Source: a virus
DNA: 21,588 bases
Direction: 5' to 3' (one strand)
IMG/VR virus record: IMGVR_UViG_3300033994_000338
Coordinates: 1 to 21,588 of that record
In this document: positions 6,098 through 12,957 of the stretch, one piece after another
How the letters are laid out: each line of letters opens with the position of its first letter
Position numbering within the stretch: the stretch's first letter is position 1
The notes under the pieces: model-generated
Databases searched by the model: none
Told to the model about the DNA's origin: nothing
Seen by the model: only the letters and a program-made list of their open reading frames with translations
Program-made: the position numbers and the translations under genes

Positions 6098-6221
6098 TTG
6101 ATCTTCTTTCCCTAGTTGTTTATAGCTCTTATCGGCTATAGGTAGAGAGTATCAAAGTTTCGACTAAAAAGGCAGTATTTCAAGCAAGTTTTTTAGGTTG
6201 TTACCAATCCGTTACAAAGTC
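6098..6221 (-). promoter_or_regulatory. Leader/promoter region of the small-gene operon
   Basis: This 124-base gap separates the RusA gene from the next operon and carries the A/T-rich composition expected of a promoter. On the minus strand a TTGATA is followed 16 bases later by GATAAG, and a TATAAA lies slightly further on; both are only partial matches to -35/-10 boxes. The ribosome-binding stretch sits at the downstream end. Promoter assignment is tentative. Confidence 0.35.
6121..6140. repeat. Perfect inverted repeat, possible operator
   Basis: TATAGC and GCTATA form a perfect 6-base inverted repeat separated by eight bases (one turn of the helix between centres suits a dimeric repressor). 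It lies within the candidate promoter of the operon, overlapping the proposed -10 region. It could also be a weak hairpin in the transcript leader. No second copy was noticed in the window. Confidence 0.4.
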
Positions 6222-6656
6222 CTAAACCCTTGATAAATAGACCCTAGCCCCGCTAATCGGGTAGGTTTCGGGGGTCGAACCCGTCCATAGCTTTCGAGCG
6301 TCGATCTCAACGATAAGGGAATCGTCCAGCAAAACCCCTGCCTGTGTGAGCGAATCCCCCACCGCCCGGACCAAGTGATCCAAGTCTGGCTTTCCCCCCG
6401 GATAGTCCGCATACTTTGACTTAGCAGGGCGCTCAATAAAGAAATCGACTTCGAGCTTTACGGGTTCACTAAAAGGCGTAACGTCCATAGATTCATTTAG
6501 GGCAAGTTTCGCCGCCAACATAACCGCCGATCGCCACTCAGGAAGATACTTCGAAGATTCGACCATAACCGCCCGCCCGCCGCGAACATAAGCAGTCTTG
6601 CTACCCTGCGGCGCAGGTCGCCCTTCGACCAAGAAAGAGAACTCAGTCCTAGACAA
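6222..6656 (-). CDS. rusA: RusA-like Holliday junction resolvase
   Basis: A 144-residue protein. The N-terminus has FSFLVEGRPAPQGSKTAYVR, the basic start typical of actinophage RusA proteins. The catalytic region is KPDLDHLVRAVGDSLTQAGV followed by LLDDSLIVEI (residues about 89-118), giving the aspartates D91, D93, D101 and D111/D112 that coordinate Mg2+ in RusA. These dimeric enzymes cleave four-way junctions during recombination and clear branched DNA before packaging. It follows the SSB-like gene by two bases and starts with TTG at 6654-6656 without a good ribosome-binding site, so it probably depends on coupling. It is the last gene of its transcription unit. Confidence 0.85.
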   Translation of the reverse strand: MSRTEFSFLVEGRPAPQGSKTAYVRGGRAVMVESSKYLPEWRSAVMLAAKLALNESMDVTPFSEPVKLEVDFFIERPAKSKYADYPGGKPDLDHLVRAVGDSLTQAGVLLDDSLIVEIDARKLWTGSTPETYPISGARVYLSRV

Positions 6657-6658
6657 AA

Positions 6659-7021
6659 CTAGAAGGGCATATCGTCGGCTACGGCAGTCCAGTCCGCAGG
6701 AACTTTAGTATTAGACACGTTTACTCCGACAGGTTCAAAAGTAGTTCCGTTTATAGAAACCTTCACCGAACGACCGGGCTTACCTTCACGATCGAGCTTT
6801 ACCGAGCCGTCCGGGTTCTTCCAATCTTCGATAACCGCAGAGTGAATCCCACTAAACACGCCTTCAGCGCCCACGTCGAAACTTACAGGCTTCTCAAACC
6901 AAGCCGTATAAAGCCGCTGAGCAGATTCGCCGTCCTTAGTCTTGAAATACTCCGTAACAGTAACCGCTTTGCCGTCCCAGAAAATCTTGGTCGCAAAACC
7001 CTTAACGCTGATAGTCGCCAT
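6659..7021 (-). CDS. ssb: Putative single-stranded DNA-binding protein
   Basis: A 120-residue protein with a beta-rich N-terminal domain (ATISVKGFATKIFWDGKAVT, then SAQRLYTAWFEKPVSF and ARSVK-like strands near 90-98) consistent with an OB fold, and a C-terminus ending ADDMPF. The acidic DDxPF tip is the hallmark of bacterial and phage SSB proteins, where it recruits partner enzymes. The protein is shorter than cellular SSB (about 160-180 residues) and I see no obvious SSB signature in the core, so the call rests on the tail, size and context: it sits directly before the RusA gene in a recombination/replication setting. Confidence 0.65.
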   Translation of the reverse strand: MATISVKGFATKIFWDGKAVTVTEYFKTKDGESAQRLYTAWFEKPVSFDVGAEGVFSGIHSAVIEDWKNPDGSVKLDREGKPGRSVKVSINGTTFEPVGVNVSNTKVPADWTAVADDMPF

Positions 7022-7059: not shown

Positions 7060-7326
7060 TTACGTCCGACAATGTTCAACTTCTACACAGTCCTTATGAC
7101 CGCAGATTCTTTCCCCGATCATAAACAGTTCGCCGTCGATAAGCGGGTTATCGTCCGCGTCGAACTCACCACCCCAAGGCTTACAGGGCTTCCCAAAACC
7201 ATAACTAATAGTCTTAGCGGGGCGCATACGACAACTAAAGCACAACCCGTCTTTACGCTCACGCTTATCTAACGGGACGAAGCTCACCTGCCCGCACCTA
7301 ACACAAACTATCTTCTTATCGTCCAC
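7060..7326 (-). CDS. Zinc-binding phage protein (two CxxC pairs plus CGHxxC)
   Basis: This 88-residue protein has a zinc ribbon formed by CVRC (residues 8-11) and CFSC (29-32), then GKPCKPWGGEFDADDNPLI, and a C-terminal CGHKDCVEVEHC (75-86). The PW.GEFD..DNP and CGHxxCV..EH blocks recur in small actinophage proteins and resemble degenerate HNH zinc frames, but the catalytic residues are not clear. A DNA- or RNA-binding role is inferred. It starts with GTG at 7324-7326 just below a long non-coding region and precedes the SSB-like gene by 38 bases. Confidence 0.65.
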   Translation of the reverse strand: MDDKKIVCVRCGQVSFVPLDKRERKDGLCFSCRMRPAKTISYGFGKPCKPWGGEFDADDNPLIDGELFMIGERICGHKDCVEVEHCRT

Positions 7327-7753
7327 CCTAAAACCCTAGCAGTTCCTAAATAACGCTTTGGGTTCTCGAAGGGAGAGAGAAGGGCTTAGTTACGCTCCAA
7401 CTCTCTAACGCCAAGGGACTCTTGGGTTTCGGTCGGGGTCGAGTCTTGCGATATCGACTATCTACGCCATACGTAATAACAGGCTTCTAGGGCTATTGGG
7501 TAGACACGATTCAATAGCGCCGCTATTACTCTGCCGATCTCTCTTCGGCTTTTGCCCGATCTAAAGCTTCATTTATCCGCCGAGCATACTAAACAGGATC
7601 GCTCTAACCGACTGAAACCGGGAGTATGAGTCCACGGGAAATTGACTTTAGTTCGGCTTAACGAGTTGGCACTCTCCGAACACTTGACCAAAGGCAAGAT
7701 TTGACCCGAGTAGTTCGGGCTTGCTGCTATTCAGTTATAGGAAGTTGCTCTTT
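7327..7753. ncRNA. 427-base non-coding region, candidate structured RNA
   Basis: No credible gene occupies this interval although the rest of the window is packed. Short perfect stems follow each other: AGAGAG/CTCTCT (7374-7406), CCAAG/CTTGG (7411-7425), GTCGA/TCGAC (7438-7458), CTATTG/CAATAG (7493-7517) or alternatively AATAGC/GCTATT (7513-7527), GCCGA/TCGGC (7533-7549), CATACT/AGTATG (7585-7628), GTTCGG/CCGAAC (7651-7681) enclosing GAGT/ACTC, and CCCGA/TCGGG (7705-7719) extended by GCAAG/CTTGC (7694-7724). GGCAAG at 7693-7698 can instead pair with CTTGaCC at 7683-7689. Both strands could fold. It matches no RNA class I know (tRNA, tmRNA, group I intron). A control region or origin is the alternative. 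Confidence 0.4.
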
Positions 7754-8566
7754 CTACTTGAAGTTATCGTCGTCGATCAGGAATCTTAGGGCGAGCTCTG
7801 CCTGTTGCGGAACGACGCCGTTTCCAGCCATTTTGAGTTCGTCTGCTCGGCTTAGATTATGCCCGGTTATGTGTCCTTCGGGCAAACCCATAAGCCACTC
7901 GGTAAAGAGCGAACTGAGCCTGTGCGATCCGTCTTTGCCGTCGGGTTTAGTAGGCGGTGGAGATTTACGCCCAGTTACTTGCTCCCAACGTTGAATAGCG
8001 GCGGCAAACCTGCCCCAATTAGTTTCTTTCTGAGTTACCCAGACTTGACGTGCGAGAGTTTCGATTCTATTCGGGTTATGTCCGTTGTTTTTGTGAACGT
8101 CGGCAAGCGGGGTCTTTAGAAGCTCCATTCGAACGGCTACGCCTAGACTCACTCCCGGCATACCCTTTACTTTCCCGTCTAGGTAGTCCTGCCGACGATC
8201 TAGATAATCGTCTATCTCTTCGTCATAGTTTCTAATATGCCCGATAGTCGGAGTCGGCAGTAGTCCTAATTTTTTGCTATCTTCGACAAACTCATAAGGG
8301 TTTGGGTTCGCATTACCCCGAAATGCCGGGCTTCGACCATTAGAAGCCGTAGTAAGAGTGTTAAACACTTGGACGGGCGACGATAAAGACTCGCTCTCGC
8401 TGGTGAGCCGCCCCTGCGTCTGAAGCTCGAACAGTCGTCCAGCGGCAGTCATACCCGATTTCGGAAAGACTGCCTGAAACAACTCCGAGTGCTCGGAGAA
8501 TAGGCTCTCCTGCTCGGTAATCCAGACCTGAAGATTCGAGTTCCAACTCGCTAGCGGCTTTAGCAC
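7754..8566 (-). CDS. DNA cytosine-C5 methyltransferase, C-terminal part (TRD and motifs IX-X)
   Basis: The C-terminus carries HRLSSLFTEWLMGLPEGH (motif IX region) and AGNGVVPQQAELAL (motif X), the parts missing from the overlapping upstream methyltransferase gene. The middle (LLPTPTIGH to about residue 190) would be the target-recognition region. The longest frame starts at GTG 8564-8566 with AAGGGG upstream and contains FPKSGMTAAGRLFELQ, which resembles a stretch in some phage methyltransferase proteins. That part overlaps, in another frame, the conserved motif VIII of the upstream gene. An alternative GTG at 8366-8368 would give 204 residues and an 8-base overlap. Together with its neighbour it would rebuild one enzyme, either as two subunits (as known for M.AquI) or through a frameshift. 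Confidence 0.75.
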   Translation of the reverse strand: MLKPLASWNSNLQVWITEQESLFSEHSELFQAVFPKSGMTAAGRLFELQTQGRLTSESESLSSPVQVFNTLTTASNGRSPAFRGNANPNPYEFVEDSKKLGLLPTPTIGHIRNYDEEIDDYLDRRQDYLDGKVKGMPGVSLGVAVRMELLKTPLADVHKNNGHNPNRIETLARQVWVTQKETNWGRFAAAIQRWEQVTGRKSPPPTKPDGKDGSHRLSSLFTEWLMGLPEGHITGHNLSRADELKMAGNGVVPQQAELALRFLIDDDNFK

Positions 8567-8918
8567 TTAATAGACCCCTTACATTTTCGATAACTACTAT
8601 TTTCGGTTTTATTTCGGTAATCGCTCTCAAGAACTCGAACCATAAGTTAGACCGAGTTCCTTCGGTTAGACCTTTTCGAAGCCCTGCGGTCGAAACGTCT
8701 TGGCAGGGAAATCCGCCCGTAAGTATCTCGACGGGTTCTATAGCGGTGAAGTCCACTTTACTAACGTCGTGGTAGTTAGGCACTCCGGGAAAGTTTGCGG
8801 CTAGGACTGCGGACGGGGCTTTCTCCCACTCACAATGCCAAGCGACTTCTGCGTCGAAGATTTTGGCTACGGCTATATCGAGTCCGCCGTAACCGCTGAA
8901 AAGGCTTCCTATCTTCAC
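8361..8918 (-). CDS. DNA cytosine-C5 methyltransferase, N-terminal catalytic part
   Basis: A 185-residue protein with motif I SLFSGYGGLDIA at the N-terminus, motif IV GGFPCQDVS (catalytic cysteine in PCQ), motif VI ENVRGLL, and motif VIII QRERVFIVA at the C-terminus. It stops right after motif VIII, lacking the target-recognition domain and motifs IX-X, which lie in the next gene in a +1 relative frame. A typical single-chain enzyme is over 300 residues. Start is GTG at 8916-8918, immediately after the Dam stop. The last codons read GTT TAA followed by C, a context where +1 slippage onto TTT would join the frames. It probably protects phage DNA from restriction. Confidence 0.88.
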   Translation of the reverse strand: MKIGSLFSGYGGLDIAVAKIFDAEVAWHCEWEKAPSAVLAANFPGVPNYHDVSKVDFTAIEPVEILTGGFPCQDVSTAGLRKGLTEGTRSNLWFEFLRAITEIKPKIVVIENVRGLLSAKAASELELESSGLDYRAGEPILRALGVVSGSLSEIGYDCRWTTVRASDAGAAHQRERVFIVARPSV

Positions 8919-9416
8919 TTAGTCCCCTTTTCTTTTGAGATCGATAAAGAATCCTTCGATAGAGCAGTTTCGCAGGGCTTCCTTTTCGGCTTCACCATAG
9001 GCGATAAGGACTGAAGGCGAACCAGCAGTCCCGGCTTTCTCACCTGTAGGTAAGTGAAACCGAATCCGACCCTTGATAAAGAGAATTGCGTCCGCCCTGC
9101 CCCAAACAGTTTCAAAGAAGGTTTTAGTTTCGGTTCGAGCAAATACAAGAGCAAGCCCCCCCCCCGCGTGTTTTGCGAGCTTATTTAGCCAAAGATCCAT
9201 ACCGCGACCATAGGGCGGGTTTAGCCATACTCGACCGAACCAATCCTGCTTTAGTCCGTCGTTTTCTATCGTGAAGTGATTTAGCGCAGTATCCCAAGGG
9301 CTGTCTACAGGGGCGCAGGGGTCAAGATCGAACGTTCCGAGCTTTGCTAAAAGTTCGGGCGGGGTAAGCCAAACGTCCGTTCCTGCGACTGTAGGTTCGC
9401 CGCCTAAATTAGCCAA
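8919..9416 (-). CDS. dam: Phage DNA N6-adenine methyltransferase (Dam family)
   Basis: A 165-residue protein with VWLTPPELLAKLGTFDLDPC near the N-terminus (the family's substrate and AdoMet region), the catalytic VWLNPPYG motif at about residues 63-70, and a compact C-terminus ending in basic residues. This is the layout of the phage Dam family of orphan adenine methyltransferases. It starts with TTG at 9414-9416 preceded by AAAGGGG at good spacing. The AGGGLAL segment (around residue 85) is encoded by a run of ten G, a potential slippage site that could switch the gene off. The next methyltransferase gene begins directly after the stop, so the two are expressed together. Confidence 0.88.
   Translation of the reverse strand: MANLGGEPTVAGTDVWLTPPELLAKLGTFDLDPCAPVDSPWDTALNHFTIENDGLKQDWFGRVWLNPPYGRGMDLWLNKLAKHAGGGLALVFARTETKTFFETVWGRADAILFIKGRIRFHLPTGEKAGTAGSPSVLIAYGEAEKEALRNCSIEGFFIDLKRKGD
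9156..9165 (-). repeat. Ten-base poly-G tract inside the Dam gene
   Basis: On the plus strand ten consecutive C (ten G in the coding strand) encode part of AGGGLAL in the Dam protein. Homopolymers of this length are unusual in an otherwise mixed-composition genome and are prone to slip during replication or sequencing. Loss or gain of one base would shift the frame; a +/-1 frame is open for nearly 80 codons from here to 8915. Confidence 0.85.
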
Positions 9417-12663: not shown

Positions 12664-12957
12664 ATGAGCCACCGACAAAGCAAACTCTATTCTGAGCTAA
12701 CGTTATCTATTCGTAATCTTGGGCAAGATCCGCCCTGCGTCGAAAGATACCTGCTTTACTACCCCGAAGGCGACGAAGCGTTCATAAGGTCTAGCAATAA
12801 GGAAGCGAAAGCGGTCTGCCAGACCTGCCCGGTTATTCAAAAGTGCCTAGATTACGCCCTGTCCGCTCAGGAAGCCGAAGGGGTTTGGGGCGGGACGACC
12901 GCTAGAGAGCGGGAATCACTTATCGCGGCGAAGAAGCAGACGCGCCTGAATAGTTAG
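12664..12957 (+). CDS. whiB: WhiB-family iron-sulfur transcriptional regulator
   Basis: The only plus-strand gene. Of 97 residues, the four cluster cysteines are C25 (in PPCVERY), C52, C55 and C61 (VCQTCPVIQKC), followed by GVWGGTTARERE (73-84), the G[VI]WGG turn, and a basic tail (AAKKQTRLN) for DNA contact. WhiB proteins hold a 4Fe-4S cluster, bind the principal sigma factor and control promoters; they are restricted to Actinobacteria and their phages. Phage WhiB can repress host whiB genes and affect superinfection. The divergent placement and the intervening inverted repeat suggest it controls the recombination operon and itself, which is inference. An AGGG lies upstream of the ATG. Confidence 0.95.
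   Translation: MSHRQSKLYSELTLSIRNLGQDPPCVERYLLYYPEGDEAFIRSSNKEAKAVCQTCPVIQKCLDYALSAQEAEGVWGGTTARERESLIAAKKQTRLNS

Follow-up and report, generated by a model that had tools for sequence, protein, structure and literature searches.

A large conserved structured RNA directly upstream of the zinc-ribbon/SSB-like/RusA genes in a group of phages

Gene 32 of phage T4, which encodes an SSB, reportedly carries an autoregulatory leader with a pseudoknot, and its product, gp32, is said to regulate its own synthesis. The RNA described here is likewise a phage RNA structure, with a candidate pseudoknot, placed before a gene for a putative nucleic-acid-binding protein, and it is likewise proposed to control translation initiation. 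In contrast to the T4 leader, it is far larger and built of many helices, and the first gene behind it encodes a zinc-ribbon protein, the SSB-like gene being the second. No homology between the two RNAs is known, either in sequence or in structure.

Comparative genomics has also revealed the manA and wcaG motifs, structured RNAs of cyanophages, the second of which occurs in probable 5' untranslated regions (PMC2864571). The present RNA is also borne by phages and was also found by comparative genomics, but the phages, the genes presumed to be regulated and the structure are different, and it has no match in the Rfam library. GOLLD, ROOL and OLE are large ornate and heavily structured RNAs of unknown function, some of them present in phages, which form homo-oligomeric complexes (PMC12286853). 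Our RNA is also large and heavily structured; unlike them, it is shorter, matches none of the Rfam families and abuts a start codon, whereas no cis role is built into the position of GOLLD, ROOL or OLE. Few bacterial or phage RNAs longer than 300 nt have comparable comparative support, and the RNA of roughly 340 bases presented here fits no described family.

The intergenic gap and its homologues

The DNA studied is the IMG/VR virus record IMGVR_UViG_3300033994_000338, and the whole stretch analysed, 21,588 bases long, is called here the window. An earlier note on this DNA had singled out positions 7327-7753 as a stem-loop-rich gap without genes and as a possible new structured phage RNA. The genes flanking the gap are read on the minus strand. 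Upstream lies a C5 methylase (8361-8918 and 7754-8566), and downstream follow a gene for an 88-aa zinc-ribbon protein (7060-7326, start codon GTG at 7326-7324), one for an SSB-like protein (6659-7021) and rusA (RusA resolvase, 6222-6656). The product of 6659-7021 does not by itself match any family significantly, and its putative assignment as SSB-like comes from its DDMPF ending and from the gene at the same place in another phage (locus L120), which matches the Pfam SSB family.

No credible open reading frame was found in the gap on either strand. Stops occur in all six frames in the window and in its four close relatives (L002-L005; 5/5), together with 1-nt insertions and deletions, and therefore the conservation of the gap is not that of a protein-coding sequence; this confirms its non-coding status and rules out a coding gene or the remnant of a broken methylase. 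ARAGORN detected no tRNA or tmRNA fold in the window or the relatives. Across the gap, L002, L003, L004 and L005 are 92, 83, 88 and 86% identical to the window, whereas in these close relatives the three downstream genes are only 48-69% identical at their four-fold degenerate sites, so the gap is non-coding and yet under selection. In L004 and L005 another gene takes the place of the methylase, and homology starts at the gap itself.

The RNA was found in ten other IMG/VR phage contigs, all of them metagenomic assemblies: the four close ones, five diverged ones recovered with a covariance model and one obtained by a motif scan. The covariance model (R2), which covers the central part and was built solely from the five close sequences, was applied to 75 more viral loci in which a profile scan had detected a zinc-protein homologue, and to the Pontimonas phage phiPsal1, the sole phage record to contain a relative of the zinc protein. 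It matched exactly five loci (L036, L037, L039, L040 and L041; E 1e-8 to 1e-10), each time directly ahead of a zinc-protein gene that shares 51-55% identity with that of the window; a neighbouring model, R1, gave in this diverged clade only collinear, individually sub-threshold matches. A motif scan of all viral contigs, independent of any gene, recovered known copies and added L120 (model E 8e-11), where the RNA lies upstream of the zinc protein and behind the C terminus of a C5 methylase. Other motif matches, in genome contigs (L123) or viral ones (L111, L113, L115-L118), were not matched by the model and were taken as chance, and the 31-base pattern of the first hairpin had no match in genome contigs. 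A third model (R3), made from all 11 sequences and tested over 89 loci, separated these 11 (E <1e-30) from the next locus (E 2.3).

The zinc-protein gene does not need the RNA, since about 70 phages have the gene without it. Most of these other genes begin less than about 30 nt from the preceding gene, leaving no room for the RNA, and R3 found no copy elsewhere in 24 whole records of relatives lacking it at the zinc-protein gene, phiPsal1 included. The zinc-protein tree is poorly resolved and requires the RNA to have been gained or lost once or twice.

None of the 4227 families of Rfam 15 was matched at the curated or gathering threshold in the window, L120, L039 or L041, and the matches of the element itself were only at chance level (E 3.6-8.7). 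No homologue was found in the phage and plasmid collections, and thus, at the sensitivities used, the RNA matches no described family in Rfam or in phage and plasmid records. The proposal of a new structured phage RNA is in this way strongly supported by conservation, by the absence of an Rfam match and by the compensatory changes described below.

A conserved fold on the minus strand

The folding energy of single sequences is unremarkable. By itself, the gap of the window is barely more stable than its shuffled versions (z -1.3 on the plus strand and -1.6 on the minus strand), values with which the density of stems, used as an argument in the earlier note, would not carry the case alone; single-sequence folding was set aside as an uninformative test. 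It is the comparison of homologues that decisively bears out a structure beyond chance. The consensus fold of the five close sequences on the minus strand contains 117 pairs, 16 of them changed on both sides, with a z of -5.4 against column-shuffled alignments (-4.6 on the plus strand) and none of 150 shuffles as low.

The core alignment comprises 11 sequences of 342-361 nt, which begin with the first hairpin and end with the start codon. It has 72 consensus pairs, and 97.6% of its cells are standard pairs; 43 of the 72 pairs show changes on both sides, although the 11 homologues form two tight groups plus one sequence and represent fewer independent events than such counts suggest. Controls in which the partners were slid, and which retain the relatedness of the sequences, gave only 2-10 pairs with double changes, and none of 500 shuffles matched the observed pairing or covariation score. 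The consensus-energy z for the 11 sequences is -15.3 on the sense (minus) strand and -12.6 on the antisense strand, and the sense structure contains 71 G-U versus 8 A-C cells, a difference that the prediction itself favours. The evidence favours the minus strand, whereas the earlier note had named none.

As a check independent of the distant clade, the consensus of the window's clade (clade 1) was also transferred to the six distant sequences. Helices H1-H3 and H5-H8 pair there at 88-100%, with many double changes, and the whole clade 1 structure is 73.7% paired in the distant clade versus 30-50% for slid versions; H9 and H10 fail in this automatic mapping and form once hand-aligned. Entire stems have been rewritten between the clades, as in H6, where GCCGA/UCGGC is replaced by GUUCU/AGAAC. 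A conserved RNA structure on the sense strand is thus found by computation.

The core of the RNA (7327-7682) starts with H1 and stops one base short of the zinc-protein start codon. It contains about ten helices; further features are a GNRA tetraloop, a pseudoknot candidate of 7 bp that is invariant, and a closing helix of long range. It is preceded, only in the clade of five, by a 5' extension with two hairpins (7683-7728), which neither the other clade nor L120 possesses. The hairpin at 7720-7704 carries a compensatory change in L003 (CCCGA/UCGGG to CACG/CGUG). H1 (7651-7681) is the nested GUUCGG/CCGAAC around GAGU/ACUC already pointed out among the stem-loops of the gap; it is kept in 11/11 sequences (100% paired), with double changes in 7 of the 9 counted pairs. 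The next hairpins are H2 (7618-7637; 8 pairs, 98.9% of cells paired, 4 double-changed) and H3 (7594-7614; 6 pairs, 98.5% paired, 5 double-changed), the latter with a conserved loop GUYAGAK and a 2-nt bulge.

The closing helix, P1, is formed between 7587-7591 and 7337-7341. Its 3' strand is UGCUA, of which GCUA is invariant; 96.4% of the cells of its five pairs are paired, with one double change and two pairs varying on one side only, and the last pair is broken in two sequences. Within P1 lie H5 (7553-7586), with two helices, a conserved loop sequence and 4 of its 6 pairs double-changed, and H6 (7533-7549; 5 pairs, 100% paired, 4 double-changed), with an invariant GAGAG loop. They are followed by H7 (7473-7529), a long hairpin of two helices and 17 pairs, 12 of them double-changed. 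Its loop strand at 7500-7506 (UGUCUAC in the window, UAUCUAC in the other ten) can pair over 7 bp with GUAGAUA at 7459-7465 in 11/11 sequences, pairing being kept in two wobble variants; this candidate pseudoknot, PK1, is suggested by invariance and complementarity rather than by covariation. H8 (7438-7458; two helices, 6 pairs, 100% paired, 4 double-changed) is capped by the GNRA tetraloop, GCAA here and GCAA, GUAA or GUGA among the homologues. The hand-aligned H9 (7406-7429) keeps its inner stem in 11/11, its outer A-U pairs being partly lost in the window, L002 and L005; H10 (7375-7405), also hand-aligned, forms in 11/11, with one pair changing between clades from G-C to U-A and another from G-C to G-U.

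Three further pairings were considered and discarded. The first consensus had another closing helix, ACUGAAUAG/CUGUUUAGU, which was dropped: its CUG is part of the covarying H3, and its 5' strand overlaps a -10-like box. A hairpin over the start codon and ribosome-binding site of clade 1, GAGAACCC/GGGUUUU, is only 33-45% paired in the distant clade and is not a general feature, and a second pseudoknot, between the GAGAG loop of H6 and a 3' CU-rich run, has a partner that overlaps H10 and is not clearly conserved.

The earlier note had also proposed a switch, on the grounds that two segments could each pair in two ways. One partner of each was upheld: 7512-7518 pairs with about 7493-7498, within the H7 stem, and GGCAAG (7693-7698) with 7683-7689, in a hairpin of the close relatives. 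Neither of the two remaining partners, 7522-7527 and 7720-7724, is conserved among relatives. So far nothing points to a switch, because the alternative partners are not conserved, and two mutually exclusive conserved folds were not found among the homologues. One other competitor of PK1, at alignment columns 220-226/301-307, is broken in L039.

Position, promoter and neighbouring genes

Every copy found, including all those from the gene-independent motif scan, lies directly upstream of an ortholog of the zinc-protein gene, and in 11/11 sequences the invariant GCUA of P1 stops precisely 10 nt short of its start codon. The structure thus has a consistent place 5' of the same gene and reaches the ribosome-binding region. 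The window, L120 and L039 share the downstream gene order zinc protein, SSB, RusA. The gene upstream of the RNA is variable, namely a C5 methylase (window, L036 and L120), a Mom-like gene (L041), an HNH nuclease (L037, L039 and L040) or a gene of unknown function (L004). As a side observation, this slot resembles a cargo site, being mostly occupied by DNA modification or nuclease genes (window, L004, L036, L037, L039, L041 and L120).

In the diverged clade, TATAAT is found just before H1. L041 has a near-consensus promoter (TTGCCA-17-TATAAT, 11/12) eight bases ahead of the first hairpin, and another, TTGCAA-18-TATAAT, lies just before H1 in L040; these predicted promoters would put the start of transcription at the first hairpin. 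In the window, a -10-like box, TATAAC at 7739-7734, lies inside an invariant block, with a weak -35, and a consensus promoter scan does not list the site; the promoter is weak in the window's clade and not evident in L120. On the sense strand, there is no terminator-like site between the RNA and the zinc-protein gene.

For 22 genes of the window, the median predicted Shine-Dalgarno energy is -6.4 kcal/mol; the zinc-protein gene reaches only -3.8 kcal/mol in clade 1, and values from -1.7 to +1.1 are predicted for it in the remaining sequences. This weak Shine-Dalgarno at RNA-bearing genes is only suggestive, since RNA-less homologues are often weak too.

Possible roles of the RNA

The best reading of these data, in which we place moderate confidence, is a new family of leader RNAs that act in cis on translation of the zinc protein/SSB/RusA operon, because the RNA tracks the downstream and not the upstream gene, its 3' helix has an exact position and no terminator-like site follows it. 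According to this proposal, 7327-7753 would encode a long, highly structured 5' leader, transcribed from a promoter just upstream, with its start at or near H1. The transcript would fold into about ten helices with the GNRA-capped hairpin and a loop pseudoknot, P1 closing the 3' two-thirds of the fold and laying its 3' strand on the ribosome-binding region, 10 nt before the start codon. The fold would most likely control translation initiation of the zinc-protein gene and of the coupled genes behind it, and the signal may be a nucleic-acid-binding product of the operon (the zinc-ribbon protein or the SSB) or a small molecule. We infer the transcription from a local promoter, the translational control and any ligand; that the zinc protein or the SSB might regulate its own synthesis is a guess modelled on T4 gp32. 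If the RNA does control the production of SSB and RusA, phage replication would have a new RNA device. It is small enough for synthesis and linked to a defined operon, and its pseudoknot and closing helix provide specific mutants for testing.

More tentatively, the RNA might represent a new class of large phage RNA with an activity of its own, for example a metabolite- or protein-sensing riboswitch with a new fold, or a structured leader that assists ribosomes in reaching a start codon whose Shine-Dalgarno sequence is weak or missing; it would then be retained to control phage replication and recombination genes.

The main rival to the cis-acting leader, which we regard as unlikely, is a stand-alone trans-acting non-coding RNA like GOLLD, ROOL and OLE, processed from the mRNA or made apart from it. 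The size, the number of helices, the pseudoknot and the GNRA loop exceed those of most leaders, L040 and L041 offer a promoter of its own, and most phages with the same operon are without the RNA. However, its 3' end has no terminator-like site, its spacing of 10 nt to the start codon is exact in all 11 copies, and it has never been found beside another gene. An RNA acting in trans would constitute a new large non-coding RNA class.

A DNA-level element (a replication origin or a packaging or recombination site), with hairpins acting in single-stranded DNA, would fit a location between a variable gene slot and replication and recombination genes, as well as an antisense strand that also folds well. 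It is nevertheless improbable, since the sense strand folds better, with its excess of G-U over A-C cells (even if the prediction favours G-U), and the GNRA loop, the strict orientation and the start-codon spacing fit RNA. Very improbable, too, is an intron or ribozyme that splices or cleaves itself and travels with a mobile element: the presence of HNH endonuclease genes immediately before the RNA in L037, L039 and L040 would agree with it, but no Rfam intron or ribozyme family is matched even at E 10, no gene is interrupted, and the distance to the start codon is fixed. Stem-loops arisen by chance in a spacer, or what is left of a decayed gene, both of which the unremarkable single-sequence energies would allow, are refuted by covariation, whole stems being compensatorily replaced between clades and conservation exceeding that of silent sites, and deserve practically no credence.

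Some other features of the window can be mentioned. The C5 methylase occupies two overlapping frames, an N-terminal one with the PCQ motif (8361-8918) and a C-terminal one (7754-8566), both matching DNA methyltransferase families; the arrangement, identical in L002, possibly corresponds to a frameshift-joined or two-part enzyme. A run of ten C at 9156-9165 (ten G on the coding strand) lies within a Dam-like methylase frame (8919-9416), and this slippage-prone tract might switch the gene or else be an assembly error; L002/L018 has a nine-base run elsewhere, close to the methylase junction. A second short gap, 3' of RusA (6098-6221), is 79-89% identical in the same relatives. Finally, a divergent gene for a WhiB-like transcriptional regulator (12664-12957, plus strand, opposite to its neighbours) is conserved in L034 and L033. 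WhiB proteins are actinobacterial, so this gene points to an actinobacterial host, and the phage group carrying the RNA probably infects actinobacteria.
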